37,758 nt of DNA, from the IMG/VR virus record IMGVR_UViG_3300034283_000797, positions 1 to 37,758 of that record; one strand, written 5' to 3'. The DNA comes from a virus. Positions 1-36,943 of this stretch are shown piece by piece (the first letter of the stretch is position 1; every line of letters starts with the position of its first letter). The position numbers and the translations under genes are program-made. The notes beneath the pieces are model-generated. The model saw only the letters and a list, made by a program, of their open reading frames with translations. It was not told the DNA's origin and searched no databases.

Positions 1-75
1 AAGTTGCTGACGTAGGGTATCTCGTAAATTAACTTTTGCTGAAACTTCAGTGTTTTCTACTGCATTATCTTCCAT
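1..75 (-). CDS. Scaffold protein, N-terminal fragment (cassette A copy)
   Basis: The first 25 codons of the scaffold gene read leftward from an ATG at 75 and run off the window edge. The bases are identical to the start of the complete scaffold gene ending its 5' side at 33819, so the rest of this gene is presumably what is seen at 32803-33744. The start overlaps the stop of the upstream 106-aa gene by 11 bases, exactly as in the other copy. This fragment is one of the reasons for reading the contig as wrapping round a circular map. Confidence 0.85.
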   Translation of the reverse strand, partial: MEDNAVENTEVSAKVNLRDTLRQQL

Positions 76-127
76 GGTTTAACCTCTCTCTTACTTGGTT
101 AATAAAAGCGGAAACGGTCTTATCTGC
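1..127. repeat. Exact terminal repeat with 33745-33871
   Basis: By eye these 127 bases match 33745-33871 without a mismatch; the first difference is base 128 (a here, g at 33872). The identity covers the start of the scaffold gene and the end of the 104/106-aa gene. It marks where the two versions of the locus fork and is best explained by circularity of the map plus strain variation. Confidence 0.9.
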
Positions 128-385
128 AGTATTGCGTTCCTTTTCAGGACTGTACCCACGATCATAAGCGTCTCCGACCTCAATAGCTCCAGCAGCTTTA
201 TAAGCCGCCCGTAGCTTTGATTTACTGGTATAGATTTCTTTTGGGTTCAGCGGATTGCGTGTTGGCTCCATCTCGTCCTGTATAAACAGGTCACGAGCAT
301 TGGACTGCACACGGCGCTGAACCTCTGCGATTGGAACAACTTTTTCTGCTACGGGACAGTATTGGAATAGTTGATATTTGCTCAT
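65..385 (-). CDS. Conserved small protein upstream of scaffold (A allele)
   Basis: A 106-aa protein of unknown function, encoded just before the scaffold gene in the late operon. The C-terminal two thirds are identical to the 104-aa protein at 33809-34123, whereas residues 10-30 differ and carry a two-residue length difference. The identical part contains a Lys/Arg/Tyr-rich stretch and ends near NQVRERLNHGR. The stop overlaps the scaffold start by 11 bases, so the two are probably translationally coupled. Its place between the portal-side cassette and the scaffold suggests a capsid-assembly or virion role; that is inference from gene order. The gene straddles the left edge of the swapped cassette. 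Confidence 0.85.
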   Translation of the reverse strand: MSKYQLFQYCPVAEKVVPIAEVQRRVQSNARDLFIQDEMEPTRNPLNPKEIYTSKSKLRAAYKAAGAIEVGDAYDRGYSPEKERNTADKTVSAFINQVRERLNHGR

Positions 386-691
386 TTAATCATCCATTAG
401 CATAAACAACATCAAGAATCTTGTTCGTTTTGCTTTTTCTTCTTTTTCTAAGCTCTGCCTTTCTAATGCTTCTTCTGCTACTCGTTTAGCTTCTAATACC
501 TCTTGCCTACGCCCTGCTAGTATTTGAGCAGCTAAGTATTCCTCTAGTAACTCTTGTTCCGTTTTACGCTTTTTACGGCGTTTTAAACCTCTAGCAAGTA
601 TATCTGATGTATCGGTTACCTTGGCCTGAATAAAGCCGTTAGGTAAGCCGTACATCATGTGTAAATGGTTTTGAAATCCTCCATTAGTCAC
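386..691 (-). CDS. Basic coiled-coil protein (cassette A)
   Basis: A 101-aa highly charged protein whose centre (about residues 38-88) is rich in Lys, Glu, Arg and Leu and is predicted to be a helical coiled coil. The start shown is GTG at 691, overlapping the end of the 331-aa gene; an ATG at 658 is an alternative. It shares a short motif with the 215-aa protein of cassette B: TSDILARGLKRR here and SSDILNKRLKRK there. Both sit immediately before the 104/106-aa gene, so they look like diverged or analogous occupants of one slot. Function is unknown; a structural or assembly role is inferred from position. Confidence 0.7.
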   Translation of the reverse strand: MTNGGFQNHLHMMYGLPNGFIQAKVTDTSDILARGLKRRKKRKTEQELLEEYLAAQILAGRRQEVLEAKRVAEEALERQSLEKEEKAKRTRFLMLFMLMDD

Positions 692-1679
692 TGTTCATAC
701 CGATTATAGGCTCTGCTGTTGGATCAGTTGTTACTGTTCTTGTGCCAAGTACTGTGGTGTCATCTGACTTAGTGACAGATAACGTAGTGCCAGAAACTTG
801 TGTATTGTGTACTCCCTGAGCCACCATTCCGTACAAAGATTTAAGACTAAGTGCATCACCGTCGCTAGATGCTTCTACATTGCTAGTTGCTCGACGTAGA
901 ACTATATCAGCTATGCGAACTAAATCCGCTTCCGTTAAAACTTGACTGCCTAAAATATAACCAGCCTCTCCTGCTGCGTAAGAGCCAGGCAAAGCAGTAG
1001 ACCAAGGATCACCCGCTGACGCAGCCGAGTTAAGTTTGTTACCCATTGTGCCAGTTGCATTGTAATCAGCCGAAAGAGCTTCCCAAACAGCTCCGGCCAA
1101 AGATTGAGGGGATAATGGTGCAAACGGGGTAATATCACCAGCTAAATTACCAATAGCAGTTTGGGTACCAGCCAATATAAATTGAAAGGATGAGTTAGCT
1201 ACAGCGTCAATAATTGCGCCTAGCGTTGCATTATTAACCGTAAATGTGATTGACGAATCACCTGCAAGAGGTACGGCTGCTGCTAAGGTTGCACTTAAAC
1301 TGAATGAAATTGAAATGTTACCATCAGCAGAAACGATTAACTCCAATAGTGCGGCTGGTACATCAAATGTGATTGATGTACTTCCGACAGCAGGTCGTGC
1401 CATCGTACCAGAACCATTTACAGTAAATGTAACTGTTGCATTTCGGGATGATATCCGTCCTGCCTGTAACGCCATTAACCACGAAACAGGATGCGTAGTT
1501 CCATCAGGAATAGCTGCTAATGTACCAAAAGCTGCCGTCTGATTGCGTTTTGCAGACCAGAGCGGCAGCATATCAGTTTGCTGCGCTATTCCACTGACAG
1601 CCCCTATTGTTCTACCAGGGAAGGCCGTATACGGCCCTACAGCAGCTATGGGGCTTTGTCCGTGGAATCTCAGTGCCAT
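684..1679 (-). CDS. Virion appendage or fibre-like protein (cassette A)
   Basis: A 331-aa protein rich in Ala, Thr, Ser and Gly, with beta-strand-like repeats at residues 80-180 such as ATVTFTVNGSG and SSITFTVNNAT. A later segment (about 195-245) contains AVWEALSADYNATGTMGNKL, a type of sequence common in phage tail or appendage proteins. No enzyme motif is seen. It follows the 423-aa gene by six bases and belongs to cassette A, which is absent from the cassette B allele. A role in host-surface binding or capsid decoration is inferred from composition and location only. Confidence 0.75.
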   Translation of the reverse strand: MALRFHGQSPIAAVGPYTAFPGRTIGAVSGIAQQTDMLPLWSAKRNQTAAFGTLAAIPDGTTHPVSWLMALQAGRISSRNATVTFTVNGSGTMARPAVGSTSITFDVPAALLELIVSADGNISISFSLSATLAAAVPLAGDSSITFTVNNATLGAIIDAVANSSFQFILAGTQTAIGNLAGDITPFAPLSPQSLAGAVWEALSADYNATGTMGNKLNSAASAGDPWSTALPGSYAAGEAGYILGSQVLTEADLVRIADIVLRRATSNVEASSDGDALSLKSLYGMVAQGVHNTQVSGTTLSVTKSDDTTVLGTRTVTTDPTAEPIIGMNSD

Positions 1680-1685
1680 CTACTA

Positions 1686-2957
1686 TTAACCTCCCCATGC
1701 GTAGCGTAGTACGCCAAAGAAGTTAGTGCTTGCCGGAGTCGCTGCACCTGCGTATGCAAGCCATGAAAGACAAGCATTTGACGATGCCGCTGCTGCTTGT
1801 ATTTGTGGAAGCGATGGGAACTGGTTTAGAAGATCACGCTCTGACAAAAGGAATTGAGTCGTGAGCGGTATCTCCATAATTGGTCTAGCAAGTACAAGAT
1901 TTGTAAAAGTGCTTGCGGTACCATTAGCTGCACTTTGCTGCCATCTTTGCACACTTCGCACACCAGTATCTCCGCTTTGTAGCGGAAAAAACGGACCAAT
2001 GTTATTTGCTGCAGTTCCTGTGTGATAAACATGCGAGTTTACCGCCGAGGCTGTCGCTGCAACAGTTTGCGGGAGATTGCGCGTTCCTGTACCACTTTGA
2101 TTTGTATATTCGAGCGTTATGTTATGAGCAGTAGCTCCTGTTGTTGCTGGTGCTACTACACTATACGCCATTACACCCGTTCCTGTCGTATTGCGAGGCA
2201 ATGTTAAACTATTACTTAGCGTAAGTTGTGTTGCTGTATTTCCGTCGATTCGCGCATAGCAGCCAAGGAGGTCTACAAGCAGCAAAGTTATTGGCACAGT
2301 CGTAGCACCAGCCGTTTGAGCTGACATCGTAAGTAAATGCTTTGTTGCAGTTCCACCGATTAAATCGCCTGGCCAAATACAACCCTGCATATTTGCATTA
2401 TACGGCATGAAACGAGGGGACTGCCCGTTAGTACCGCCTGCAATAACAATTAAGTTATCAACGGTCATGGTTTGTCCCGATGCCGCTGTAATAGCAATCG
2501 TCTGAGTAGGGCTACCGCCAGTAGTTACAGCAAGGGTTGAGGTTGTAGCAGTAGTGATAGAAGTCGAAGCCGTTCCACCAATATCAATCGTAATTCCACC
2601 AGTACCGCTAGGAGATGATGTTGTTACAATCACTGTGTAAGTAGTGCTTGCCTCAATGGTAGCAAGAGGTGTCTGAGAAAGAGCACCAGCCGTACCCGCA
2701 GTATGCACCATGGTACCGGCTACGTTCCAAGCCCATCCACCAGAACCAACGCCTGTCCAATCAGCAGCAGAATCAAAGCCCCAGTTTTTCACGTAATTAC
2801 CGTGATAACCCTGGCCTCTGTCACCACTGCCAAGAAACAAGTCGAACCATCGACCAGCGGTCATTGCAGTAGGAGAAATTCTATTCCACGGTTGCGTCCA
2901 AATTTTGCCATTTGTTGTGACCTGTGTAATTAGATCGTCGTAACTATTAAAGCCCAT
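1686..2957 (-). CDS. Virion surface protein with inserted carbohydrate-binding-like domain (cassette A)
   Basis: A 423-aa structural protein. Residues 1-50 and about 180-400 resemble the 285-aa protein encoded next to it: both begin with a DL...TN...W...G.W.DL pattern, and both carry a GPF(F/V)PL motif followed by a V.LV.A/KPI.E segment. Residues 55-175 have no counterpart in the smaller paralogue. They start NWGFDSAADWTGVGSGG and end MTVDNLIVI, the typical opening and closing of a jelly-roll carbohydrate-binding module. The gene is in cassette A, nine bases after its paralogue. I infer a duplicated virion surface protein that gained a sugar-binding insertion, probably for adhesion. A fold prediction would test this. 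Confidence 0.75.
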   Translation of the reverse strand: MGFNSYDDLITQVTTNGKIWTQPWNRISPTAMTAGRWFDLFLGSGDRGQGYHGNYVKNWGFDSAADWTGVGSGGWAWNVAGTMVHTAGTAGALSQTPLATIEASTTYTVIVTTSSPSGTGGITIDIGGTASTSITTATTSTLAVTTGGSPTQTIAITAASGQTMTVDNLIVIAGGTNGQSPRFMPYNANMQGCIWPGDLIGGTATKHLLTMSAQTAGATTVPITLLLVDLLGCYARIDGNTATQLTLSNSLTLPRNTTGTGVMAYSVVAPATTGATAHNITLEYTNQSGTGTRNLPQTVAATASAVNSHVYHTGTAANNIGPFFPLQSGDTGVRSVQRWQQSAANGTASTFTNLVLARPIMEIPLTTQFLLSERDLLNQFPSLPQIQAAAASSNACLSWLAYAGAATPASTNFFGVLRYAWGG

Positions 2958-2966
2958 ACAATTCTC

Positions 2967-3824
2967 CTATTCTCTTGCAAAACAAATTACTCCTGTCGTT
3001 GATCCGCTTGCACTCGTAGTTTGTACGGTTCCAACGATGTGATTTAAATAAGCCCCAGAAGGTACAAACGCTGGTACTTTATTTCTTGGAAACTCAAGTT
3101 CAACAGGGGTATTAGCACTGTAAACCGTAGTTTCGTATATTGGTTTTACAAGTACAAATGCACAAAAACCTCCAGCAGGTGAAAGCATTGTAATACTATC
3201 TACTTGTTTTACATCAATAGTGCCTGGGCCAAGAGGAACAAATGGGCCTAATGTACGGTCAAAATATCCGTTGCTGGTAAGACAATTTATGGTTCCAATT
3301 GAACTAATTGCTGTTACCCAAAAACTTACACTTGTTTGAACATTATTACTGTCAGTGTAAGTAACCTTTACTTCTGCCACACCCGAAACGCTTTGAGGGA
3401 TTGTGGTTACAACCATTAAACGTAAACCAGATGTGTATCTGCTGGCATAGTTCGTATTATCAAACACCTGCAAATCGGTGAAATCCATATCAACGAGCGG
3501 ATAAAAACCAACATAATCCATGAGCATGAAGTTGCCTGGCGCAATGTGACTACTGGTATTACTTCCGCTTGCACGATACCGAACAAGATAGCTATCGCCC
3601 CCAAGTCCTGCGTTTATACCGTTATTGCCAGAACCAACAAGCGGGGTAAACTCCAGAGCATTTCCTACGTAAGGATTAAACTTTGGCGTACCGGCGGCCA
3701 TAGACAAATCAAGCCAATGACCGTTGAAATTAGGCGTAGGGTTTGCAGTTTTGAACCAATTAGATTGGAAAACCTTATTGTTAGTCCAAGAGTTTGCTAA
3801 ATCTCCAACGCTAGTTATTGCCAC
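2967..3824 (-). CDS. Virion surface protein, paralogue of the 423-aa protein (cassette A)
   Basis: A 285-aa protein with a GTG start at 3824, overlapping the preceding 60-aa gene by 14 bases. It shares its N-terminal pattern and its C-terminal half with the 423-aa product of the next gene, including LGPFVPLGPG (compare IGPFFPLQSG) and VLVKPIYE (compare VLARPIME). It lacks the 120-residue inserted domain of that paralogue. No catalytic motif is visible. Its position after the portal and within a replaceable cassette suggests a head or tail surface component; the exact place in the virion cannot be told from sequence. Confidence 0.75.
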   Translation of the reverse strand: MAITSVGDLANSWTNNKVFQSNWFKTANPTPNFNGHWLDLSMAAGTPKFNPYVGNALEFTPLVGSGNNGINAGLGGDSYLVRYRASGSNTSSHIAPGNFMLMDYVGFYPLVDMDFTDLQVFDNTNYASRYTSGLRLMVVTTIPQSVSGVAEVKVTYTDSNNVQTSVSFWVTAISSIGTINCLTSNGYFDRTLGPFVPLGPGTIDVKQVDSITMLSPAGGFCAFVLVKPIYETTVYSANTPVELEFPRNKVPAFVPSGAYLNHIVGTVQTTSASGSTTGVICFARE

Positions 3825-3993
3825 TTGTCACCGCCTTTGCTGCTTCAGATGTTGCAATAATTACAGCATTTGTATGTTCACAAGTACGAAAAAAGCGGCC
3901 ATTGAAAACAATGATAATTTCATTGCAATCACCACATTTAAATAGTGGTTGCAATGTTTGCTCATCTATTGCTTGCTGGGCCGCAGTTTTCAT
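3811..3993 (-). CDS. Small zinc-ribbon-like protein (cassette A)
   Basis: A 60-aa protein whose centre reads KCGDCNEIIIVF...RTCEH, giving a CxxC plus C-x-H set that could bind zinc. The ATG at 3993 overlaps the TGA of the preceding gene in an ATGA arrangement, so translation is probably coupled; a TTG one codon upstream is possible. The 3' end overlaps the 285-aa gene. Function is unknown, and such mini-ribbons are common in phage structural operons. Confidence 0.65.
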   Translation of the reverse strand: MKTAAQQAIDEQTLQPLFKCGDCNEIIIVFNGRFFRTCEHTNAVIIATSEAAKAVTSGNN

Positions 3994-4433
3994 CAATCGA
4001 CACTAGCAGTCATAGCACCAGCGGCAAACTGTGGCTGGATTCCGGTGGAAATTGAAAGCGATGATGTAAGAGCACCTTTGAGAAGTAAGTTTCCTGTACC
4101 AGTAGAATCAGTTCCAATACCAAAGTGTGTTACAATCGACGAACCACCAGTACATTGAGCAAACTGAACAAGTGCGGTGTTTGCAACAGTGCTGCTTGTG
4201 CGAGTCCATCCACCAGCAGTACGAGCTACAGCAACGCGAGCATATCCAGTATATGATGCTTCGCTGGTTGATTGATTGCCAGCTTCGCCTGGATCAGCAG
4301 TATGAAGCGAGATGAAGAAACTTCCAGCCGTAGCTGAGTTTTGCAATCCAGCAACATCGCCAATGTTAGCCCAATCTGTGTTTAAAAAAAGCAAATCAAG
4401 AAGTGCTGCTTCAGCAGCGTTAGTCATAGACAT
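3993..4433 (-). CDS. Gp80-type tail/virion protein (cassette A)
   Basis: A 146-aa protein with the pattern FFISLHTADPGEAG...YTGYARVAVAR...FAQCTGG...THFGIGT, which I recognise from a widespread family of small phage structural proteins usually annotated as tail fibre or Gp80-like proteins. It is the first gene after the portal in cassette A, starting three bases after the portal stop. Cassette B has an unrelated 189-aa protein in this slot. A tail-tip or decoration function is likely from the family, but the position in the particle is not known. Confidence 0.75.
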   Translation of the reverse strand: MSMTNAAEAALLDLLFLNTDWANIGDVAGLQNSATAGSFFISLHTADPGEAGNQSTSEASYTGYARVAVARTAGGWTRTSSTVANTALVQFAQCTGGSSIVTHFGIGTDSTGTGNLLLKGALTSSLSISTGIQPQFAAGAMTASVD

Positions 4434-4436
4434 AAT

Positions 4437-6986
4437 CTAATCCTTATTATCATCAATGTTATCAATAGACAAAGTTGTATTTCCCATGTCATCCGTTCCA
4501 ATCGTACCTAACTTCTTACTTGGCTTTGGGATGATATTGTTAATTACTATCGGTTGCTGCTTACCACCTTCGCTAACAGGTTGTGGCCTGTTTTGTATGG
4601 TTTCCATACTCATGCGGATACGTTCTAACTGTTGTTCCGAAGCAAGTCTACGCTCTTCCATAAGCTTTTCAGACTCGGATAAGCGAATGCGCATCTGCTC
4701 AAGTTCTAGCTTTTGAATCTCTAGAATGTGCTGCATTTGAGAAGATTCTTGCTTGATTAAAGCCTTATCGGATTCAGATTGTGCACCAGCCTGAACTTTG
4801 AGCATATCAACCTGAACAGCTGACTGCTTAACTTGCAACTCTTGCTGAGCAAGGGCTAGCTCTTGTTGCTTAAAATATTCATCTGCCTGTTGTTTTTGAA
4901 CAGCTATTTGGGCATCGAGCTGGTCACGTTGAGCTTTGAGCTGTTGGTTTTGCATTTCAATTTGGCTACGAACAGCTCTATCGTTTGCCTCCATTTGCGC
5001 TTGTTGCAGCCTAGCTTGCGACTCTATCTGTGCAATTTGCAACCGCCCTTGTACTTCTTGCATGGTTGGATCTGGCGGCGGTGGCTGTTTCGCAGCCTCT
5101 TCTTTAGCCTTAGCAATTTCCGCAATTTGTTGAAGAGCTTTAGTAAAGATACCATCAATTTCTTTGCCTCCCTTAAAACGCTTAATCATGTTTTGAAAGA
5201 AGCTGATACTAAACTCAGCTAGCGGCGGGTACTGGTCTACGAGACCTCTCATTTGATCGAAGAAACTACCAGCGGTTTGAAGAAGGTTTACGCCCTCTTG
5301 CTGTTGTTGTTGCTGGTCAATAGCAATCATAGAGTCAGAAGCAATTTCAATGCGGTAATTACGCATCTTGTTGTCCCGTAGGATGCTAAGAATCTGCATC
5401 TTAGTAATTTCCACTATTTGCGCCATATCAGGCATGGGAGGTGACTCACCTAGTGGCATACCATCTGGACCCATTGGAGAAGGTGGTGGGGGTGGTAGGT
5501 AGATAGTTGGAACAATAAGCTCATCTGCGTCTGCTATTTCTAAGATGCGCTGATCGTCAAACTGTTCCGCAATAATTGTGCCAAGGTTACTAATGGCATC
5601 GGATACAAACTTGGTAAACATGTTCTGCCGAACAATGAGACCAAGTGACGACCACTGATTCTCTAGTCTATTGGCCGTAGCTGATTTGTACTGCTCTGAA
5701 GTACCACGCAATAAATCAGATACTTTTAAGGTTTCATAAAGCTGTTGAAGGGCTGTCTGTCTAGCGCCTTGAAGCACGTTTAGAGCGTTAATAAATGGTT
5801 CCACTGGATAGAAACTCATAGCAGCGGCAAGACCGCCACGACCTTGATTTGACGTCCAGTTATTAACAGGAACGCCTTTTAGGTCATCTTGAAAGATTTG
5901 CTCAATGGTTTGACCCATAGCTGAGTCATACGCAAAGTTAGTGCGAATGGCCTGGGTGACTGCATGAATACGGGTAGTGAGCCGCTCAACCTCTAAGATT
6001 TGATCTTTAACGTGTGCGTAGTCTGAAACTGGGATTACGCTGTCTGGGTCAAGACTTTGACGGATAGCAGAACAGGGGTAGAACTTTTCAAACTTAATTG
6101 GTGGTTCAGTTTCATCAATTAGGATTTTATCGCCTGACTTTTGAATCCAATAGACTTTGTTTGTAGCTTGGCACCAGATTTCAAACACTTCAGCTTTGCC
6201 GTCATATTTGTCTTGGTTTCTAGCGATTTCCTTTTTAATAACCTCTGGGAAACTATCATAGCTGAGCATTTCGGCTTTTTCTGCACCAAATAGAGCTTCG
6301 GCTTGGTCCCTATCAAGAAACGCTCGTCTTGCTTGCCACTCTATTTCTGACTCGTTTCTAGCATCAGAACAAAAGTAATCATTGTATTGCACTACGTCTA
6401 GAACTGCTCGTTCACTGACTTTTTGTTCTACCTTTACAGACGCCAGTAATAAGCCGCCAGGAGCCTCGGTAATGTCCTCTAACTCATCGGTAAAGGCGTT
6501 ACCATTGCCGTCAGAATAAGAGCCGTCCTCGTTCTGTATGACGGCTATTTGCTGGAATACGGTTTCAAACTTAGGCTCGTACCTAGCCCAGAGTACAGCT
6601 TGCCCAGTAAGCAAAAACTGCAAAGCTGCATTGTATCCAATTTTGTCAAAGTCAAAATGACAATCCATTGAATACTGGGTATTACGCTCAAGGATAATGC
6701 TACCAAGTTCGTATGGTATGCCACCTGTGCGCTTTCTTAGGTTTACTTCGGCTTTAGGGGTAGAGCTGTAATAGGCAGGTAGTAGGGTGTTAATGCAGTA
6801 CCACCATACGTTTAAGCGGCGCTGGGCGTCCTTTAGGCTGTCGATCTGCTTTTGGGCGTTGTATACCCTTATGGACTCTTCAGCATCGCCTATAAAGCGT
6901 TTACGGCGGTCTTCGGAGATAGTGATTTGTTGCTTCCACCAGCGAGGCGAGTATTTCTTTACAAGTGACTTAGCAACTTTCTTCAT
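4437..6986 (-). CDS. Portal protein, complete (A allele)
   Basis: An 849-aa protein following the large terminase with an ATGA overlap, the standard portal position. The portal forms the dodecameric ring through which DNA is packaged and ejected. The N-terminal two thirds is a portal core. A proline-rich loop (YLPPPPPSPMGPDG) follows, and then a long Gln/Glu/Lys-rich region of about 170 residues predicted to form a coiled coil, like the extended helical barrel of P22-type portals. It ends in a low-complexity acidic tail. From about the DMLKVQA motif onward the sequence differs completely from the second portal copy at the window end, while the upstream part is nearly identical. The right edge of the swapped cassette therefore lies inside this gene. 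Confidence 0.92.
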   Translation of the reverse strand: MKKVAKSLVKKYSPRWWKQQITISEDRRKRFIGDAEESIRVYNAQKQIDSLKDAQRRLNVWWYCINTLLPAYYSSTPKAEVNLRKRTGGIPYELGSIILERNTQYSMDCHFDFDKIGYNAALQFLLTGQAVLWARYEPKFETVFQQIAVIQNEDGSYSDGNGNAFTDELEDITEAPGGLLLASVKVEQKVSERAVLDVVQYNDYFCSDARNESEIEWQARRAFLDRDQAEALFGAEKAEMLSYDSFPEVIKKEIARNQDKYDGKAEVFEIWCQATNKVYWIQKSGDKILIDETEPPIKFEKFYPCSAIRQSLDPDSVIPVSDYAHVKDQILEVERLTTRIHAVTQAIRTNFAYDSAMGQTIEQIFQDDLKGVPVNNWTSNQGRGGLAAAMSFYPVEPFINALNVLQGARQTALQQLYETLKVSDLLRGTSEQYKSATANRLENQWSSLGLIVRQNMFTKFVSDAISNLGTIIAEQFDDQRILEIADADELIVPTIYLPPPPPSPMGPDGMPLGESPPMPDMAQIVEITKMQILSILRDNKMRNYRIEIASDSMIAIDQQQQQQEGVNLLQTAGSFFDQMRGLVDQYPPLAEFSISFFQNMIKRFKGGKEIDGIFTKALQQIAEIAKAKEEAAKQPPPPDPTMQEVQGRLQIAQIESQARLQQAQMEANDRAVRSQIEMQNQQLKAQRDQLDAQIAVQKQQADEYFKQQELALAQQELQVKQSAVQVDMLKVQAGAQSESDKALIKQESSQMQHILEIQKLELEQMRIRLSESEKLMEERRLASEQQLERIRMSMETIQNRPQPVSEGGKQQPIVINNIIPKPSKKLGTIGTDDMGNTTLSIDNIDDNKD
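5119..5236. repeat. Exact repeat with 37641-37758 (portal gene)
   Basis: These 118 bases inside the portal gene are identical to the last 118 bases of the window; the flanking base at 5118 (t) differs from 37640 (c). Between about 4800 and 5118 the two copies differ only by scattered, mostly third-position changes. This is the second point where the two alleles of the locus converge. Confidence 0.9.
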
Positions 6987-8407
6987 ATTCTACTTTTTGC
7001 GTTTCTCGCCCTAATCTTTTCGATGTAGCTTTGTAGTTGTATCACACCTTTATTGAAAACCTGTGCTGGTTGTTCCCACTTAGAGTCAATTAACCGTGCT
7101 TTGCAGAGGTAGCGTAAAGCGTCTGCGGCATGGTCATTCCCAGTTGTGTCCAAATCCTCTGGATGCCTTTTGTCTATTGACATGGATGGTAGAGTTTCTA
7201 AGAGGTATGGGCAAGTTGCAAAAATATAGAGTAACGGAGGTTTAGCGACTAAGCGTTGTCGTATCTGAGACCAACCTGAAATACGGTCGTTATCGGCTCT
7301 TCTAAACGGTGGATGTTTGTACTTAGCAAACACGTTTGAGAACTGCTCATTAATACTAGGACCACCATCACACTTAAAAATGCTTGGGTCAGCTACCGCT
7401 ATTGGATTTTCTCCCACGGATGCTGAAGCGATTCTAGTTGCTTGCTCAACGTTATCGACTCCTTTTCCCCACATTTCTCGATAGATAATAAGACTTCCCT
7501 TTGGATACGGAACTTCATTACCTCCATCATCACGTCCAGAGCTAACAGCACCCCAGACAGCAGCAAAAGGGGAACTATAACCCCAATCAAACCCCAAATA
7601 GCGGGGCCAGTGCTTTGGGACGTTGAAAGGAGCAATAATATGTTTAGAGCTAAACTCTGGAAAGTAACTGCCTTCATGAATCTCAAAATCTCCTTCTAAC
7701 CATGCTCGCACTAGCTCTGGACTACCTACCATGTGCAAACGGTTAATGTATTCAGGGTCTCTAGCTAACAGTATTTGATTATCCACCACCCGACTTGGAA
7801 TATAGATGTAATCAAACTTAGCGCCGTTAGGTAATAACTTTTCTAAAACCTTCATGCCTCTGGGTGCTGGCCTAATAAACAACTCTTTTAGCCAGCCATG
7901 CCCTACACCGCCTGGGTTAAAGGTAAGAATAACCTGACCACCACCCTTACCTCGGAGTGCTCCAAATAGCTTCCAGATACAGCTTGGGTCAGAGTAGTTT
8001 CCCGCCTCTTCTATAGCCGCATGAGATAACGACTGACCTTGATATTTTTCAGCATCAGCATCATTTGCTAATGGTCTAAACCGCAAGCGTCCACCACCTA
8101 CAAAAGTGAATTGCTTTTTCTGGTCCTGCCAATGAGCTTTTAGGGGCAAATAAATCTGCTTAGCTCGCTCAATAAGGTCATCTGCCTGGGGTAATTCTTT
8201 ACGGAAGAAGATAGCGTTAAAATCAGCGCCAAGGCGTTCTTGGTCTACTGCCATCTTACCCAATACCCCGTCAGTTTTACCGCCTCCACGGGCACCACCG
8301 AAGCCAATAAGGGTAATAGGGCAGTTTACTAGAGTTTCCTGCGCGCCAGGTTGAGGCGACCATACGATATTCTCATCGGTGCGCTGGTCTGCAAACCAAT
8401 CACTCAC
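6983..8407 (-). CDS. terL: Terminase large subunit
   Basis: The packaging motor ATPase and nuclease that cuts concatemeric DNA and drives it through the portal. I chose the GTG at 8407, which overlaps the methyltransferase stop as GTGA and has AGAGG upstream; a TTG at 8452 would add 15 residues. In the 474-aa product, Walker A is GGARGGGKT at residues 37-45, Walker B is AIEEAG at 131-136 and the coupling motif is LTFNPGG at 161-167. The RNase H-like nuclease begins at LGFDWGY with D274, and a C-terminal HAADALRY motif supplies a later acidic residue. It overlaps the portal start by four bases. Confidence 0.95.
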   Translation of the reverse strand: MSDWFADQRTDENIVWSPQPGAQETLVNCPITLIGFGGARGGGKTDGVLGKMAVDQERLGADFNAIFFRKELPQADDLIERAKQIYLPLKAHWQDQKKQFTFVGGGRLRFRPLANDADAEKYQGQSLSHAAIEEAGNYSDPSCIWKLFGALRGKGGGQVILTFNPGGVGHGWLKELFIRPAPRGMKVLEKLLPNGAKFDYIYIPSRVVDNQILLARDPEYINRLHMVGSPELVRAWLEGDFEIHEGSYFPEFSSKHIIAPFNVPKHWPRYLGFDWGYSSPFAAVWGAVSSGRDDGGNEVPYPKGSLIIYREMWGKGVDNVEQATRIASASVGENPIAVADPSIFKCDGGPSINEQFSNVFAKYKHPPFRRADNDRISGWSQIRQRLVAKPPLLYIFATCPYLLETLPSMSIDKRHPEDLDTTGNDHAADALRYLCKARLIDSKWEQPAQVFNKGVIQLQSYIEKIRARNAKSRI

Positions 8408-9045
8408 AGCGGCAATACCTCTTGCCGTAAACGCTTGGCAGCTAATTCGCAATACTTTTCCTCAATTTCAATGCCAATTGCTTTCCATTGAAGGTCTTTT
8501 GCTGCTCGTAAACTACTTCCACTTCCTGCAAAAGGGTCAAGCATCGTTCCAATTTTATGACATCTTAAAAATGGATACATTACATTCACAGGTTTTTCTG
8601 TTGGATGACGAAGACTAGAACCATTGATTCGTGGAACTCTTATAATGTCTGTGGGTCGATAAACAAAAAAATGATTGATTCCAGGGTAAAAAGCGCACCC
8701 TTCCCACTGTCTACCAAACTCATGTTGTAAATCCCCCATAGAATGGCTGCCTTTGTCCCAAACTATAAAACTTTTTGGTTTTGGAAGTTGATACAGATTA
8801 TCCCATCGACACCATACAAACATGGCAACTTTGTATTTAATTTCTTCAAATATCCAACTAGGAAACTTGTCATCATTTACAATGCCGCCTAATTGCTCAT
8901 GTTTTGCCCGCCAATTGCTGTGATAATCCATTCCATAAGGCGGATCAGTAAGCACCAAATCAACTGGCTCTAAATGAGGTAAAATATCCCTACAATCCCC
9001 GTGATATAAAGTAACGTAATTATCTTGGTAGTAAGGTTTAATCAC
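8404..9045 (-). CDS. Beta-class DNA methyltransferase (N6-adenine or N4-cytosine)
   Basis: A 213-aa S-adenosylmethionine-dependent methyltransferase. The catalytic DPPY motif is at residues 34-37, and the SAM-binding DPFAGSG motif follows near 170-176; this order defines the beta class (N6_N4_Mtase family). There is no partner endonuclease nearby, so it is probably an orphan enzyme that protects phage DNA from host restriction or marks it. The start is a GTG at 9045 overlapping the upstream stop as GTGA. It lies between the zinc-ribbon genes and the large terminase, a frequent location for phage methylases. The recognition sequence cannot be inferred. Confidence 0.9.
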   Translation of the reverse strand: MIKPYYQDNYVTLYHGDCRDILPHLEPVDLVLTDPPYGMDYHSNWRAKHEQLGGIVNDDKFPSWIFEEIKYKVAMFVWCRWDNLYQLPKPKSFIVWDKGSHSMGDLQHEFGRQWEGCAFYPGINHFFVYRPTDIIRVPRINGSSLRHPTEKPVNVMYPFLRCHKIGTMLDPFAGSGSSLRAAKDLQWKAIGIEIEEKYCELAAKRLRQEVLPL

Positions 9046-9251
9046 TTCCCACTCACCATCACCGCATTATCACTATAAATCCGCTCTACATTGCACTTGA
9101 AGTTCTGGCACACAAAGTAAGGTCCAGTCTCTCCAGCCTGTAAACTAACATACGGTTTATCATCGGCTACCTTAACCGTACTAATATACCCACAACCAGG
9201 ACACCTTTTAACCTCAGCATCACTTTCTTTAAGTCTGTGTTCTATCCCCAT
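9042..9251 (-). CDS. Zinc-ribbon protein
   Basis: A 69-aa protein with RCPGCGY near residue 17 and FVCQNFKC near residue 47, two Cys pairs that fit a zinc ribbon. It overlaps both neighbours by a few bases in the packaging part of the late operon. Function unknown; DNA or protein binding is a reasonable guess from the fold. Confidence 0.7.
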   Translation of the reverse strand: MGIEHRLKESDAEVKRCPGCGYISTVKVADDKPYVSLQAGETGPYFVCQNFKCNVERIYSDNAVMVSGK

Positions 9252-10412: not shown

Positions 10413-10421
10413 ATCTCACCA

Positions 10422-10440: not shown

Positions 10441-10467
10441 AGCGCAAAAATAATAATCCGATAATAC

Positions 10468-13785: not shown

Positions 13786-13976
13786 CCGAAACAGTTGAGT
13801 GTGTTGAGTGTGGGTATGAACAACCCGCCGATGAATACGATGCTAAGGCACCATGCGCAGGCTGTAGGGCACTAGATGACTATCTGGAGAACTACGGGCA
13901 GCGCAGGGAGCAACAAAACGAACAGAGCTGGTACGAGTTTTGGCAAGAATGTGAACGAATCAAAGGAAAACTATGA
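13782..13976 (+). CDS. Small zinc-finger-like protein
   Basis: A 64-aa acidic protein with CVECGYEQP near residue 7 and a second pair CAGC near residue 26, giving a four-Cys zinc site. The rest is helical and charged. It overlaps both neighbours by four bases (ATGA), placing it in the same translational unit as the annealase that follows. Function unknown; a recombination or regulatory partner is possible from location. Confidence 0.7.
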   Translation: MTETVECVECGYEQPADEYDAKAPCAGCRALDDYLENYGQRREQQNEQSWYEFWQECERIKGKL

Positions 13977-14776
13977 GTAAAGAACTAACAACAACAAACA
14001 ATTCAATCGAGATGCTTCACGCTCTTCGAAACACAGTAGCGCCAGGACTTACCGAACCTGAGTTTATGCTGTTTGCTGAGATGTGCAGGGTTACAGGACT
14101 AAACCCTGCCACCAAAGAAATCTGGGCTATCAAAGCAGGTGGACGCCTACAGCTAATGACGGGGATCAACGGCTTTCTGCGCATAGCTAACTCGCACCCA
14201 CAGTTTGACGGTATGGAAGTGACTTATGAGTGGGACGACAAAACACTTATTAGCAGCACTGTGAAAGTCTATCGCAAAGATAGGCGCTTTCCGTCAGTAG
14301 CGACAGCTTACCTAGCTGAGTACGGCAAGAAGACTCCTATATGGGCTCAAATGCCGACGGTAATGTTAAGTAAGTGTGCAAAGAGTTTAGCTATTCGTGA
14401 AGCGTTCATTCAGGAATTAGGCGGTCTCTACACAGCAGAGGAGATGCCAGCATCATTTGCCGCTCCTACACCTCAACCGATTGAAGGTCATGAGGTAGTA
14501 GTGAGCACCAAAACGGGCGAGGTGCTTGGGTTTAAAAAGGAAGGCGTAGAAGTAGAAGGTTTAAAGCCGATGGATATTGCGGCTGAAATTAAGAAGCGCA
14601 CACAGCCTACCTACTACGATGTGACTAAGTTACCTGAAAAACATCAGGCAGCAGCGGAGCAGTACTTACGGGAATGTGAAGCAAGGGAAGTCAGAGAGCA
14701 CGTCTGGCGAGCACCGATACGCTTAGAACGCATGACACAGTGCATTGTGGAGGCACCAAGTGAAGACGAAGCATAA
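13973..14776 (+). CDS. bet: Bet/RecT-family single-strand annealing protein
   Basis: A 267-aa homologue of lambda Red beta, which anneals complementary single strands during phage recombination and replication. Recognisable segments are LTEPEFMLFAEMCRVTGLNP, KEIWAIKAGGRLQ-LMTGINGFL, the strand-rich YEWDDKTLISSTVKVYRKDR, and MLSKCAKSLAIREAF before GGLYTAEEM at about residue 155. The C-terminal 100 residues are less typical and charged. Start is an ATGA overlap with the zinc-finger gene. Downstream genes supply an SSB-like protein and nucleases, which fits a phage recombination module. A classical lambda Exo is not evident. Confidence 0.92.
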   Translation: MSKELTTTNNSIEMLHALRNTVAPGLTEPEFMLFAEMCRVTGLNPATKEIWAIKAGGRLQLMTGINGFLRIANSHPQFDGMEVTYEWDDKTLISSTVKVYRKDRRFPSVATAYLAEYGKKTPIWAQMPTVMLSKCAKSLAIREAFIQELGGLYTAEEMPASFAAPTPQPIEGHEVVVSTKTGEVLGFKKEGVEVEGLKPMDIAAEIKKRTQPTYYDVTKLPEKHQAAAEQYLRECEAREVREHVWRAPIRLERMTQCIVEAPSEDEA

Positions 14777-17724: not shown

Positions 17725-18069
17725 GTGGTAAACTCACGAGCCAAAGGCGCCAGAGCTGAACGTGAGCTAGCCAATCGCCTAAAAGAGTACGGCTATCAAG
17801 CACACCGCACACAGCAGTTTTGCGGTAAGGCTGGCAACTCAGACGTAGAGTGCCATGAGCTTAGTCAGTTCCATCTTGAGTGTAAGATGGTAGAAGCTCT
17901 AAACATAGACAAAGCCATGGACCAAGCAACTAGAGATTGCGGGGACCGAACACCAGTTGTAGTGCATCGAAAAAAACAGCGCCCCTGGCTAGTCACAATG
18001 TACTTAGAAGATTGGTTGAAACTGCAAGATGCAAGAAAAACAGAAGATAAACGAAACGGAACCGTTTGA
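17725..18069 (+). CDS. Holliday-junction-resolvase-like PDDEXK endonuclease
   Basis: A 114-aa protein with a GTG start behind a strong AGGAGG. It matches a phage nuclease family: SRAKGARAERELANRL (helix with E12), then KAGNSDVECHEL with D40 and FHLECKMVEAL giving E52-x-K54. A helix follows (DKAMDQATRDCGD), then VVVHRKKQRPWLVTM. This D-ExK core is that of Hjc-like resolvases, which cut branched DNA. It would process recombination or replication intermediates before packaging. The next gene overlaps it by 41 bases. Confidence 0.82.
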   Translation: MVNSRAKGARAERELANRLKEYGYQAHRTQQFCGKAGNSDVECHELSQFHLECKMVEALNIDKAMDQATRDCGDRTPVVVHRKKQRPWLVTMYLEDWLKLQDARKTEDKRNGTV

Positions 18070-31806: not shown

Positions 31807-32763
31807 TTAAGCGTAAATAACACCCTGGAGCGCAGGAGCTGCACAGCATAGGTTTCCTTCAACGAGAATTACGGTGAAGAAAGCATCCTGGTCAACTGGT
31901 CGATCCATTGTTGGTGCTAGTGGCTTGAAGTCAGCGCCTCGAACCATGTCGAATGTCCAATACTTGGTATTGAGCAATCGGCATGAGTTGGTCTCAAGAA
32001 CTGAGCTTCCAAATCCACCATCGAATACGAAATCGCATCCGTCATAAGCAAGTACACGGAAACCAGCTACAGCCTTCTTTGTAGGAAGCTGAATACGCTG
32101 AATAGCCGTGAGCGAGCTATGAAGATACTTCCAAGCGGTACGATCCATGAGTCCCAAATCTGGAGCCTCATCGCCTCGTGTGAGACGGCTGATAACGTCC
32201 GTAATGGTCTCCTGAACATTTGAAGCGGAAAGCGTTACGTTTGTGGCGTAGTTTCTAGCCCAAGTGTTGGATGTGCGGTCGATTCCTCCGTATGTGCCAG
32301 AAGAAGGCGAAGTCGAAACTGCCTTCTTAACACCGTCGAACTCAAGACCACCGAAAGCCGTTCCATCGCCACGAAGCGAGGTGGATACAGTGTTCTTTAA
32401 TCGAGAAATAGCTGCCTTCATCTTAGCTTCAGCCAAGTCAAGGAGCTGCGCCTCGTCACGGTTAGCACGACGCTCACGTCCGTTCATTGCTACAGGCTCA
32501 TAAACCTGCTTAATAGCAAAACGGAACGCTGTCAGGTCATCAATCGCCGAAAGGTCGAAAGAATCATAACCCTGGTAGAAACCTCCAACAGCCGAATCAT
32601 TATACATGATTGGCTTACGAAGCTCATAACCACCGGAAATCTTACGAATTAGTCCCTGCTCGTCCAGCGTGGAAAGAAGCGGATTATGGTGCAATACCTC
32701 ATCCGCAATAGAATCCGACTGGTCGAAAAGGGTTGCTACTACTGCCTCTTCTAAATTAGCCAT
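31807..32763 (-). CDS. Major capsid protein (HK97-fold type)
   Basis: A 318-aa protein following the scaffold gene. It shows the expected capsid pattern: an early ELRKPIMYND-GFYQGYDSF strand pair, a helix-rich spine with LLDLAEAKMKAAISRLKNTV and GDGTAFGGLEFDGVKKAV, and later strands RVLAYDGCDFVFDGGFGSS and FFTVILVEGNLCC. The size and position between scaffold and decoration genes fit. It lacks an obvious protease partner, so maturation may rely on a scaffold. The ribosome site lies within a hairpin (32769-32793). Confidence 0.88.
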   Translation of the reverse strand: MANLEEAVVATLFDQSDSIADEVLHHNPLLSTLDEQGLIRKISGGYELRKPIMYNDSAVGGFYQGYDSFDLSAIDDLTAFRFAIKQVYEPVAMNGRERRANRDEAQLLDLAEAKMKAAISRLKNTVSTSLRGDGTAFGGLEFDGVKKAVSTSPSSGTYGGIDRTSNTWARNYATNVTLSASNVQETITDVISRLTRGDEAPDLGLMDRTAWKYLHSSLTAIQRIQLPTKKAVAGFRVLAYDGCDFVFDGGFGSSVLETNSCRLLNTKYWTFDMVRGADFKPLAPTMDRPVDQDAFFTVILVEGNLCCAAPALQGVIYA

Positions 32764-32802: not shown

Positions 32803-33819
32803 TCATTCTCCACTGAAGCGCTTGGCAAGGTTATCCCGAATATCTTTTATTTGTACTCTGGGGGTTCCACTGCCAGCGGAGCCAGTAATTGACTTTGCAG
32901 CTTGCTTTGCTTTTTGAGTGGTCGCTTGCTGCTGTTGGACTACCTGACCTGCCGTTATTTTAGACTGCAAACGGGAAAAGGTCGGATTGCCATTAACCAC
33001 ATAATTGTACGCTGTCTCAAGGACCTCCTGTGCGGAGCTATAGCGACCCGTACCGTTGAGTGCTTGCACTACTGGAGCCATTTCAGCTTCTAATTGCGAA
33101 GCTGTTTCTGGGTCTCTAAATAGAGGCTTTGCACTCATAAAGGAGTTTACAATCTGTTGGTTGTAGTATTCAAGCGCCTTTTTCTCTTGCTCGCCCTGTA
33201 AAGCTCTATAACGGTCCTCAGCTAATCTTTCTGCCTCTTCCCTGGTTAGGTAGTTGGCTTGCTGTTGCTGCTGTGGAGCTTGCATTAGCTCATCCATAGT
33301 CAGCCCATAAGACTCAAGCCATTCCCTGGCTGTCTCAACTGGATTGGACTGCATAGCCTTGTCCCAAGCAATAGCTCGTTTAGTTACATCGGTTATGCTG
33401 ATACCTGCCTTAGCGTACTCATCTTCGTACTGCTTAATGGCATCATAGTACCCCTTGGTCTGCTCCCGAAGCTGATTGACCTCCTGCATTCTGCGGTCGT
33501 ATTGTGTTTTAGTCTCGTATGCACGTCTATTAAGGTACTGTTGCAGGATATGAGCATTAGCAGGGGTAGGGGCAAGAAAAGCGTCTTTTTCAACAGCGTT
33601 CATGTCGGCTGGAGCTACGAGCAAAGGTCGCTCAGGTTCAACCGCCGCTACAGGGGTTTCTTCTTGCGCCTCTGTTGGTTCATAGCGCTCACTTTCTGTT
33701 TCTTTAGCTGGTTCGGATTGTATCTCTGTTTCGGACTTGTCTTGAAGTTGCTGACGTAGGGTATCTCGTAAATTAACTTTTGCTGAAACTTCAGTGTTTT
33801 CTACTGCATTATCTTCCAT
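32803..33819 (-). CDS. Scaffolding protein
   Basis: A 338-aa acidic, helical, Gln/Glu/Ala-rich protein directly upstream of the capsid gene. It has no enzyme motif; it begins MEDNAVENTEVSAKVNLRDT and ends with a basic tail (QIKDIRDNLAKRFSGE). Such composition and location are typical of scaffolds, which guide capsid assembly and bind coat through the C-terminal basic helix. The stop is 40 bases before the capsid start. The first 25 codons are repeated at 1-75. Confidence 0.8.
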   Translation of the reverse strand: MEDNAVENTEVSAKVNLRDTLRQQLQDKSETEIQSEPAKETESERYEPTEAQEETPVAAVEPERPLLVAPADMNAVEKDAFLAPTPANAHILQQYLNRRAYETKTQYDRRMQEVNQLREQTKGYYDAIKQYEDEYAKAGISITDVTKRAIAWDKAMQSNPVETAREWLESYGLTMDELMQAPQQQQQANYLTREEAERLAEDRYRALQGEQEKKALEYYNQQIVNSFMSAKPLFRDPETASQLEAEMAPVVQALNGTGRYSSAQEVLETAYNYVVNGNPTFSRLQSKITAGQVVQQQQATTQKAKQAAKSITGSAGSGTPRVQIKDIRDNLAKRFSGE

Positions 33820-33871
33820 GGTTTAACCTCTCTCTTACTTGGTTAATAAAAGCGGAAACGGTCTTATCTGC
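33745..33871. repeat. Exact repeat with 1-127
   Basis: The inner copy of the 127-base identity. It ends one base before the first allele difference (33872). It covers the scaffold N-terminal codons and the C-terminal codons of the 104-aa gene. Confidence 0.9.
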
Positions 33872-34123
33872 GGTATTACGTTCCTTTTCAGGACTGTACC
33901 CACGATCATAAGCGTCTCCGACCTCAATAGCTCCAGCAGCTTTATAAGCCGCCCGTAGCTTTGATTTACTGGTATAGATTTCTTTAGGGTTAAGCGGATT
34001 GCGTACTGGTTCCATTTCATCCTGAATGAATAGGTCTCGAGCTTGCCGCTCTCTATGAACCTCTTCAATTGGAACAACCTTCTTCTGCTTATGACAATAC
34101 TGAAACAGTTTGTATTTGCTCAT
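33809..34123 (-). CDS. Conserved small protein upstream of scaffold (B allele)
   Basis: A 104-aa counterpart of the 106-aa protein at 65-385. After about residue 30 the two are identical except for one residue, but the first 30 residues differ (for example RQARDL here against RVQSNARDL). It overlaps the scaffold gene by 11 bases and the 215-aa gene by four. The graded divergence marks the left edge of the swapped cassette. Confidence 0.85.
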   Translation of the reverse strand: MSKYKLFQYCHKQKKVVPIEEVHRERQARDLFIQDEMEPVRNPLNPKEIYTSKSKLRAAYKAAGAIEVGDAYDRGYSPEKERNTADKTVSAFINQVRERLNHGR

Positions 34124-34767
34124 AAATCCAATTTAGTTAGCCACATAAGTGCTTTTAGACGTTTAATCCTATTATCTCTCTTTCGTTTAAATTCTACGTA
34201 CGCTTTTTCAGCTATAGCAGCTTCATAGGCTGTTCTACGCTCTTCTTCCATAGCGGCTTCTTGAGCTATTTTATGCCGCTCCAATATAATCGCTTGAAGA
34301 TTCTTAATATCTTCTAATTGCCTACGTTGCTCTTCTAGCTTAGCAGATATTGCAGACTCTTGCTGATCTAGTGCTGCCTGAAGCTCAAGAGCTTTAACCG
34401 CTGCCTCTTGCCGCAACGTCTCTAGCTGTGCTTTCTTTAGCTCTTTCTGCTTCTCAATCTCAGCTAGAACAGCAGCCGTAACTTCTACTGATCCCGTTGA
34501 AATCTCTATGGCGTTTAGTTCTTCCTCGGTCGTAACGCCATTGATCTTATCAAGGAATAGCTTTTTCCAATCGACTAGCTTTTTGACTTCTTCTTCACGC
34601 TTTTTGGTCTTTTGCCTAGCCTTTAATAGCTGTGCGGCAATAGCCTCCTCTTCCTGAGAAGTAAGGACGTTTTTGCGCTTAAGTCTTTTATTGAGAATGT
34701 CAGAGGAGTCTACAATCTCAATAGGCGGCGGTGGCCCACCCTGGCTTTGTAGCAGGGTTAAAAACAT
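34120..34767 (-). CDS. Long coiled-coil protein (cassette B)
   Basis: A 215-aa protein that is a near-continuous charged helix (about residues 25-205) rich in Glu, Lys, Ala and Gln, with a PPPP segment near the N terminus. It has SSDILNKRLKRK, matching the slot-mate of cassette A. It sits directly before the 104-aa gene. A structural or assembly role is inferred from position. Confidence 0.75.
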   Translation of the reverse strand: MFLTLLQSQGGPPPPIEIVDSSDILNKRLKRKNVLTSQEEEAIAAQLLKARQKTKKREEEVKKLVDWKKLFLDKINGVTTEEELNAIEISTGSVEVTAAVLAEIEKQKELKKAQLETLRQEAAVKALELQAALDQQESAISAKLEEQRRQLEDIKNLQAIILERHKIAQEAAMEEERRTAYEAAIAEKAYVEFKRKRDNRIKRLKALMWLTKLDL

Positions 34768-34768
34768 A

Positions 34769-34936
34769 TTAAGCTACGCTTTGCAGTTTTGCGATTGTGT
34801 TTACAAGCTCTTCAATTTGAAGGTCTAATTTAGTGACCAATTCTAAATCTCCCTGCTTAAACGCATCGTTTCTGCGTTGTCCAACGCCACTCAATTTATT
34901 ATTAAGGATTTCAATTATTTCTTGTATCGTCATCAT
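34769..34936 (-). CDS. Small coiled-coil protein, 54-55 aa (cassette B)
   Basis: A short helical ORF too small for standard lists: MTIQEIIEILNNKLSG, then DLELVTKLDLQIEELVNTI and LQSVA. Two ATGs (34936, 34933) overlap the stop of the 476-aa gene (ATGATGA), so translation is probably coupled. The stop is one base before the 215-aa start. No counterpart exists in cassette A. Confidence 0.7.
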   Translation of the reverse strand: MMTIQEIIEILNNKLSGVGQRRNDAFKQGDLELVTKLDLQIEELVNTIAKLQSVA

Positions 34937-36363
34937 ATTACCAACTGTCTAAGCACTACGTTTGTTCCGTTTAACCAGAAATACACATACTTAATGGTGG
35001 TCGCACCATCGATGTAATCAATTATCCACGCACGATTTCCTGCTGCCGAAGTGCTTTGTGTATAGGTGGTTCCTCCCCACGGTTCCATAGCACTCAAAAC
35101 CGGATCAAATCGAAACCATCGACCCGTAGATTCTTTTTGCATATAAATGTAGGCATCGTCATAGGCAGAAGAGGTACCTACTGTGAAAGTGTCAACGCCA
35201 GGAGCGTACGACACCTGTACCCAAGTTGAAGACGGTATATCAAAATAATCTAATGCTGATCCGCCAGAACCACGGAAAGAATACAATCGTCTGCCATCAA
35301 TAATTGCGCTCTCATTCGCCCAAACTGAATCTCCAGTCTTAAAAAAGTAGGCTAGTGAACTTCCTGCGCCAGCCGAACCTGCTCTACTAAGACCAAGAGT
35401 TGTCCAGGTATTTGTGGAGATTGTGTATCTGTACATAGTAGCGGTGCCGCTTCCAACGTAATAGATGTGGTCGTCGTTTCCTTCAATCGCATAGGTCGAT
35501 GTAGCGTCAGGCGTGGTCGTCCAGCTAGCAGATACGGTAATTGCTGTAGCTGTATTAGAAGCAATCGTTCTAATTTGACCTGCTCCAACGCCGCCAGTAA
35601 TGCGAATCTGCAAGTTAGTAAACTGATTAGTAGTCCACGCTTTTCCGGTATTGTTTAATGTGGTTACGGTATTAGTGCCAGTAGAGGTTCCGGTTGCTAT
35701 TGGATTAAACGATGAGCCAACGTAACAGCTCGTAGACCTCATCGTAGCCTCAACGGTACCAGCGGGAAGTCCGGTCTGGCTTATGCTTGTATATGTATTG
35801 GTTGCATAGTCGTAGAATTTGGCAATACCAGCCGCAAGAATACCTGCGTTGATAATGAGCCATCGTGGAGTCAGCAACCGATATGTTGTAGATGCTGTAG
35901 GAGAGGCTGAAAATGCGCTCGTCACGGTAACTGTAGCGTTTGCTCCAACCGTATTGCTTGCGATGGTACGAATATCTCCAGCCGCTGGACCTCCAAGAAT
36001 TTGGATTTTATAACCTCGCAAGTCACGAGCGAGAGTTTGGTTTGTAACAAGTGTTGTTGACGTTCCACCTGTTGCCGTTAGTGATGCAGTAGTTATACTT
36101 GCTCCTGTAGACCACGGAACTCCAACTACAGCAGTTCCAGCGCCAAATGTACCTGCAAGTGCTGGGGATGCTAAACTAATGTAAGCGTCCTCCTGAGCAT
36201 TATAGAGAGATGCGCTGGCAGAACCTGTAAGCACAAATGCCTGTTGAATGTTGCAAAACAATGGAGCAACAAACACTCCCGCAACTCCAGTAGTTGGCGC
36301 AGGAGTACAAAAGTCCCATCGCTTTAAATCAAGAATCTTTTTATTTCCGTTGGTTGTTGGCAT
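34933..36363 (-). CDS. Beta-propeller-like surface protein with duplicated module (cassette B)
   Basis: A 476-aa Thr/Ser/Ala-rich protein. A roughly 67-residue module occurs twice, at about 97-163 and 226-293: both contain an LQI/KIQ strand, GG...AG(D/Q)IRTIASNT and a T...STY end. The remainder has kelch- or propeller-like strands (IYYVGSGTATMYRYTISTNT, RRLYSFRGSGGSALDYFDI). This matches families in phage tail or head-fibre proteins. It lies in the slot occupied in cassette A by the paralogous pair. A surface-binding role is inferred. Confidence 0.75.
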   Translation of the reverse strand: MPTTNGNKKILDLKRWDFCTPAPTTGVAGVFVAPLFCNIQQAFVLTGSASASLYNAQEDAYISLASPALAGTFGAGTAVVGVPWSTGASITTASLTATGGTSTTLVTNQTLARDLRGYKIQILGGPAAGDIRTIASNTVGANATVTVTSAFSASPTASTTYRLLTPRWLIINAGILAAGIAKFYDYATNTYTSISQTGLPAGTVEATMRSTSCYVGSSFNPIATGTSTGTNTVTTLNNTGKAWTTNQFTNLQIRITGGVGAGQIRTIASNTATAITVSASWTTTPDATSTYAIEGNDDHIYYVGSGTATMYRYTISTNTWTTLGLSRAGSAGAGSSLAYFFKTGDSVWANESAIIDGRRLYSFRGSGGSALDYFDIPSSTWVQVSYAPGVDTFTVGTSSAYDDAYIYMQKESTGRWFRFDPVLSAMEPWGGTTYTQSTSAAGNRAWIIDYIDGATTIKYVYFWLNGTNVVLRQLVI

Positions 36364-36370
36364 AAATCAC

Positions 36371-36940: not shown

Positions 36941-36943
36941 AAA

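Follow-up and report, generated by a model that had tools for sequence, protein, structure and literature searches.

Why should a viral contig begin and end with sequence that it also carries in its interior? The window, by which we mean the whole analysed stretch of 37,758 nucleotides of the IMG/VR record IMGVR_UViG_3300034283_000797, divides into a first part A (1-5236), a core (5237-33744), and a last part B (33745-37758). Its bases 1-127 are identical to 33745-33871, with the first mismatch at 128 (an A in A, a G in B) and the next at 134, and its last 118 bases, 37641-37758, are identical to 5119-5236, the preceding base being T at 5118 and C at 37640. Self-comparison of the window therefore confirmed both end repeats reported in a first-pass annotation, a left end that is an exact 127-base repeat stopping at a variant and a right end that is an exact 118-base copy. 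The exact repeats lie within longer similar flanks: 1-298 and 33745-34042 are 96% identical, as are the 448 bases of 4789-5236 and 37311-37758, and a gapped comparison of 1-385 with 33745-34123 gives 90%. All 353 of the 30-mers repeated in the window link sequence before 5236 to sequence after 33744, which puts the end repeats far beyond chance, and no 30-mer of the window recurs in reverse complement. Genes are cut by both contig ends, 1-75 being the first 25 codons of a 338-amino acid gene and the last bases lying in a portal gene.

We consider the contig to be an overrun circle (probability roughly 0.93), that is, the circular map, of about 33 to 34 kb, of a tailed phage present as at least two strains carrying either cassette A or cassette B, and assembled at k = 127. 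The strains would share the core, or nearly so, and would differ in a fibre-like cassette between the portal gene and the gene at the scaffold position. The assembler would have travelled from A through the core into B and halted on re-entering sequence already used, leaving inner stretches repeated at the ends. A and B occupy one slot on the circular map, from the portal gene to the scaffold and capsid genes. The unit sizes proposed in the annotation, 33,744 bp for A and 32,522 bp for B, both follow from the coordinates, the B figure assuming this same core; it stays provisional because the backbone of B may differ by a few percent, as in the relative L091. The repeated ends can largely be regarded as an ordinary assembly effect, caused by real strain variation of a known kind.

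Other assemblies contain contigs with the joins expected of such a circle. Exact matches to the 127-mer occur in three contigs and exact matches to 91 bases of the other repeat in five, two contigs being common to both sets. The join of 33744 to base 1 is spanned by L004 (3300044612_000362), with 1724 identical bases before it and 1160 after, and by L005 (3300044641_001468), with 167 before and 2012 after; the annotation had counted a lack of this join against its own interpretation. The join of 37758 to 5237 is spanned by L091 (3300043436_003605), in which B, with one mismatch in 3304 bases, is followed by 88 identical core bases. The first base of L006, a contig of another assembly, is window base 1, and all 7054 of its bases are identical to the window; 3300042503_000737 (27,146 bp) begins at window position 5119, the first base past the last difference between A and B; in the two stretches compared, its first 13,334 bases are identical to the window and its last 7147 contain one mismatch.

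Among 80 terminase relatives, the nine contigs longer than 30 kb (G006-G014) were checked for end repeats. In four of these near-full relatives (G006, G007, G010, and G012), the two ends overlap by exactly 127 bp, closing the contigs into circles of 33.5-35.5 kb, which bears out the circular map that the annotation had proposed; exact closure is absent from the other five. In G008, the first 127 bases recur 496 bases before the end and are followed by divergence (71% over the 496 bases, the run included), the same end picture as in the window. The end repeats of G009 and G013 contain two and one mismatches, respectively, with runs of 126 rather than 127 bases, and no end repeat was found in G011 or G014. 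The window and its near-full relatives are all classed as linear by IMG/VR.

The fork at k = 127 suggested in the annotation agrees with the left end, the start of L006, and the 127-bp overlaps of the relatives, but not with the right end of 118 bases. Other than at the ends, the longest identical run between A and B is 107 bases, shorter than 127, leaving no run of at least k inside the bubble, and the alternative paths are present in other assemblies (L004, L005, and L091). The portion available of a data paper citing the JGI workflow gives metaSPAdes with -k 33,55,77,99,127 (PMC11584781). None of the five contigs with the 91-base stretch differs from the core at 5237, where a variant would end the contig, and the 11 same-sample contig pairs had no 127-base overlap, the longest exact run being 109 bases (L015/L063). 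Taken together, the comparisons support k = 127 as the probable value for this contig, and support the annotation as right in its observation and right, with reservations, in its interpretation.

As a sub-case of the overrun circle, the contig may be a chimera in which strain A and its backbone were wrongly extended, through the shared 127-mer, into the B of a strain about 3% different. In L091, the backbone that carries B has 51 mismatches to the window core over 1887 bases (5237-7123), and since the B backbone may thus differ from the core, A plus core and B were perhaps misjoined via the common 127-mer. L091 equals the core for 206 bases from 5119, long enough for the two to share an edge at k = 127. 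In L005, 14 of 16 diagnostic sites in 4791-5118 have the A allele; past 5118, to 5498, it carries the L091 allele at 14 of 16 variable sites and the window allele at none, and it is evidently a natural recombinant that crossed over within the portal gene. L005 and L091 thus show an L091-like backbone combined with A in one sample and with B in a second. Against the chimera, the passage from B into a backbone across 33745 is read in no other contig examined, which leaves a different core on that side unsupported, and because the group has recombinants, B on this core is also plausible. We hold such a misjoin to be possible without favoring it.

The contig as assembled reads as a single real genome, linear and about 37.8 kb long, with a cassette near each end, and the 96% identity of the flanks would agree with imperfect terminal repeats. 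This is nevertheless very improbable. L004, L005, and L091 join a cassette directly to the core, with no end there, and on these joins one genome with two cassettes was rejected; in addition, genes are cut at both contig ends, four relatives are circles of 33.5-35.5 kb, and the head-gene region is found at a single site in 11 of 12 records (as two neighbouring pieces in two of them), the twelfth, a 7-kb fragment, having no match. Programmed variation within one lineage, through an invertase shufflon or a diversity-generating retroelement rather than mixed strains, could also account for a contig with a putative adhesin module in two versions, but is scarcely credible and was rejected on the block-wise, unrelated content: the window has no inverted pair of at least 40 bases (20-base seed) and no extra cassette copy, the A and B middles have no blastn similarity at E 1e-3 and are not point-mutated forms of each other, no reverse transcriptase is present among 30 window proteins scanned with Pfam, and whole blocks are common to relatives. 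Rfam at the gathering threshold gave no match in the window, L014, L016, or L091.

Table 1. Coordinates of the end repeats, slot versions, and genes discussed, in window positions
Positions	Strand	Feature	Remarks
1..127	.	Left contig end, exact copy of 33745-33871, one k-mer long	L006 of another assembly starts here
1..5236	-	Slot version A, 5236 bp	
65..385	-	A106, small gene at slot border, shared C-terminal part	Homologues in Mwe-JY13 (E 2e-5) and ppBjS10J-1 (E 6e-5)
386..691	-	A101, charged small protein	No family above cut-off
684..1679	-	A331, cassette protein	Contains left edge (~868) of recently shared block
1686..2957	-	A423, putative fibre/adhesin protein	
2967..3824	-	A285, distant paralogue of A423	22% over matched stretch, E 1e-7
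3993..4433	-	A146, PF23140 'Podophage GP4 fiber I protein gp80'	E 9.8e-21
4437..6986	-	Portal protein, 849 aa, C-terminal tail within exchanged part	
5119..5236	.	Inner copy of right end	3300042503_000737 starts at 5119
6983..8452	-	Terminase large subunit	
13973..14776	+	RecT/Bet-like single-strand annealing protein, possible swap driver	
17725..18069	+	RusA-like Holliday junction resolvase	
31807..32763	-	Major head protein	phrog_9953, E 1.2e-68
32803..33819	-	338-aa protein, scaffold position	Weakly like same-position proteins of Mwe-JY13 (E 2.6e-4) and Mx8 (E 0.03)
33745..33871	.	Inner copy of left end	A and B part at next base
33745..37758	-	Slot version B, 4014 bp	
33809..34123	-	B104, B counterpart of A106	
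34120..34767	-	B215, cassette protein	
34933..36363	-	B476, predicted kelch-like beta-propeller with inserted domains, putative adhesin	
36371..36940	-	B189	N-terminal 30-65 residues in other cassettes, Pam2, MinM1, and several Rhizobium phages
36944..37758	-	Portal gene 3' part, B-type (class II) tail	5' part beyond contig end
37641..37758	.	Right contig end, exact copy of 5119-5236	9 bases shorter than 127

The minus-strand order is terminase large subunit, portal, variable block, 106- or 104-aa gene, 338-aa gene, and major head protein. Comparison of the portal protein with PDB sequences gave only matches with E of at least 0.075. The RecT-like gene is present in all 10 records, the window included, and also in five of 14 control genomes, marking it as a common family. 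Among the early genes, 17062-17667 encodes a 201-aa protein of phrog_3704, which is filed as 'ferredoxin' (E 6.8e-38). Two transglycosylase-like genes are found, one at 13031-13519 in the early plus-strand genes and one at 21131-23095 in a large virion protein. At the 80 terminase loci, 26 contig ends lie at 2.5-4.5 kb, the first 2 kb past the portal gene, versus 23 at 0-2.5 kb; per kb at risk, ends in that first 2 kb are about twice as frequent as inside the portal gene. The cassette was rejected as a specific breaker of assemblies, since 42 of the 80 contigs end 0.5-3 kb upstream of the terminase gene (window ~9000-11500), and it is thus not the sole weak spot. The region at ~9000-11500, by a methyltransferase gene, may be a second variable region.

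Each slot version carries a separate portal-gene 3' end, followed by A146, A285, A423, A331, A101, and A106 in A, and by B189, B476, B215, and B104 in B. A146, the sole A gene to match PF23140, scores 74.9 bits against a curated cut-off of 27, and none of the B proteins matched this family. Among PDB sequences, A146 matched chain 8jou_a, 'Virion-associated phage protein' (E 2e-07), of an entry that we take to be that of GP4; its further PDB matches (E of at least 0.025, some to toxin chains) were taken as chance. A423 had no match among PDB sequences, and its predicted structure (pLDDT 39) was too poor for use. The B476 model (pLDDT 79.7, pTM 0.83) aligned in VIA-align to 8ttq_A with Z 23.9 and rmsd 2.7 over 264 aligned residues, and to the Ralstonia lectin 4csd_B with Z 20.9; Foldseek gave a best E of 2e-06, with query TM-scores of at most 0.40 among the matches listed. 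A kelch-like beta-propeller fold is therefore predicted for B476. Given the A146 family and the B476 fold, both slot versions look like adhesin or fibre modules. Pieces of B476 resemble genes of the cyanophages S-CRM01 and Pam2, pieces of B189 resemble genes of the cyanophages MinM1 and Pam2 besides those of Rhizobium phages, and pieces of A423 resemble the cyanophage PA-SR01 besides uncultured records. The likeness of the cassettes to cyanophage genes may be a faint hint at the host or at the source of the genes.

For 35 loci in which both borders are present, a set that includes window A, window B, and near-copies, slot length was taken from the portal stop codon as far as the conserved part of the A106-like gene. 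It is 2577-5429 bases in 33 of them and 215 bases in the cassette-less L083 and L085. In these last two contigs, which come from different assemblies, the portal tail is shortened and the A106-like gene follows about 215 bases on; they may represent a natural fibre-less form, a defective phage, or an assembly collapse. Gene content differs between strains on a common backbone, as in a viral genomic island. Window A and L112 are 98.6% identical over 900-4436 (51 mismatches in 3536 bases), against 63-88% on both sides, and from this comparison they hold what is evidently a recently shared block of about 3.5 kb, with edges at ~868, inside A331, and at ~4447-4478, in the last portal codons. L004 has a 45-base in-frame deletion in A331, opposite 1161-1205, and its A cassette is otherwise without mismatch over 2671 aligned bases. 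The cassette would be swapped by homologous recombination within its conserved flanks in portal and A106, with the RecT-like annealase perhaps aiding swaps between co-infecting phages, and it would build neck or tail fibres that set host contact.

Because the exchanged part includes the end of the portal gene, we sorted the 69 portal genes with a stop codon, near-copies included, by patterns of the C-terminal tail that were written after inspection, and compared them with the next gene, which was callable for 65 of the 69 and not for four. In the first sorting, the tails of L031 and L037 were unclassed. The 35 class I tails precede A146-, MPG-, or MTDNV-types or single other types, and an A106-like gene in the two cassette-less contigs; the 22 class II tails precede MANAIYP- or B189-types; the seven class III tails precede an 82-aa type, as does one more that was put in class III later. 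No next-gene type is common to two tail classes among the 65 portals. By eye, most tails contain a G-x-[IV]-x-x-D-x-x-G-N motif. A quick tree built from the remainder of the portal contained 64 rows, L113 and L114 being dropped for want of the anchor motif and L117, L005, and winB as too short. On this tree, tail class needs 19 changes, where two would be possible and shuffled labels need 26.2, and tail class is thus also partly clustered. The well-supported branches alone force changes (11 for class I, 12 for class II, and 5 for class III), and the tree-independent pairs all agree (10/10, 12/12, and 5/5 for classes I, II, and III), with 57 of 64 rows typed and the sets overlapping. Portals that are 99% identical can have tails of unlike class, L057 versus L045 and L047, and L052 versus L049, L051, L054, and L055.

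Conservation was expressed as the median identity of the portal, of its last 45 residues, and of the first 80 residues of the next gene over pairs whose portals are less than 85% identical. In the MANAIYP group (class II), the portal, tail, and next gene are 71, 93, and 69% identical (136 of 153 pairs). The corresponding values are 72, 56, and 80% in the 82-aa group (25 of 28 pairs), 63, 58, and 82% in the MTDNV group (18 of 36), 71, 50, and 45% in the MPG group (38 of 45), and 76, 84, and 100% in the A146 group (18 of 36). A specially conserved tail would be favoured by the MANAIYP group only; in three of the four other groups conservation is lower in the tail than in the portal. Plain linkage could explain most of the pairing of tail and next gene. 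The unlike tails have no homology, which would place crossovers upstream, in the coiled coil, with the tail carried along. The portal tail might instead be a matched docking or assembly signal for the adjoining fibre module, in which case the two would have to be swapped jointly, and if true, a tail matched to fibre type would be a new rule of virion assembly; we regard this as unlikely, given that the tree-independent sets overlap and that the tail is poorly conserved in most groups. No paper on the matching of portal tails to fibres was found in the portion of the literature covered by our search. Overall, the findings are of known kinds, the pairing of portal tails being the unusual point.

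Several relatives also differ from the window in the terminase gene. An 879-base in-frame insert at L091:911-1789 (+ strand), found also in L014, L015, L016, L088, L115, and L128, is absent from the window, where the site would lie between 7123 and 7127. The insert is open throughout, gives 293 aa in the six copies, of seven, that were translated, starts with C and ends with HNC, and is an intein by Pfam (Intein_splicing, PF14890, E 7e-14). Nested in a different reading frame of the insert is a 182-aa HNH endonuclease ORF (PF13392, E 8.9e-17; L091:1185-1730), and it would be unusual for a homing endonuclease to overlap its intein out of frame. The copies are 76-100% identical, and in L136 the form is 450 bases long and lacks the HNH ORF.

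A virus record that is classed as linear and has repeated ends can thus be an overrun circle of two strains, in which case the length and gene count of the record mislead. In this phage group, fibre-like cassettes move as blocks between backbones, as in the natural recombinant L005, and this movement would make the exchange of host-contact genes in uncultured phages traceable.

The closest parallel to the slot is the viral genomic island. In the portion available of the VirION study, host-recognition and structural genes differ among co-occurring strains of one virus, de Bruijn assemblies fragment in microdiverse genomes, and 25 of 66 islands with assigned functions have alternative gene arrangements (PMC6487183). 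Compared with the islands as described there, the assembler here crossed the core and left the two alternatives in a single contig, and the island of the window reaches into the portal gene, taking in its 3' end. A146 matches the profile of gp80 of podophage GP4 (PF23140), and PDB chain 8jou_a by sequence, whereas the other A genes and all of the B proteins lack a PF23140 match. The bead-chain neck fibre of cyanophage A-1(L), in the part of its description available, is built from several genes, with repeated beads and a larger tip; its genes are far from other structural genes, and the tip module did not bind the host (PMC10966104). A285 and A423, as paralogues of unlike size, would suit a bead and a tip, by analogy only. 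Named isolates are distant, with identities of 20-30% for the portal in 10 records and 25-35% for the major head protein in 13 records. The order of portal, small gene at the A106 position, gene at the scaffold position, and major head protein is nonetheless like that of Mx8, ppBjS10J-1, and Mwe-JY13, and the A106 homologues of the latter two adjoin the scaffold-position gene. The slot is empty in Myxococcus phage Mx8, whose A106-position gene has no blastp match to A106; it contains only a 50-aa ORF, beside a portal annotated in pieces, in Bradyrhizobium phage ppBjS10J-1; and in Microcystis phage Mwe-JY13 it holds a 304-aa gene and others.
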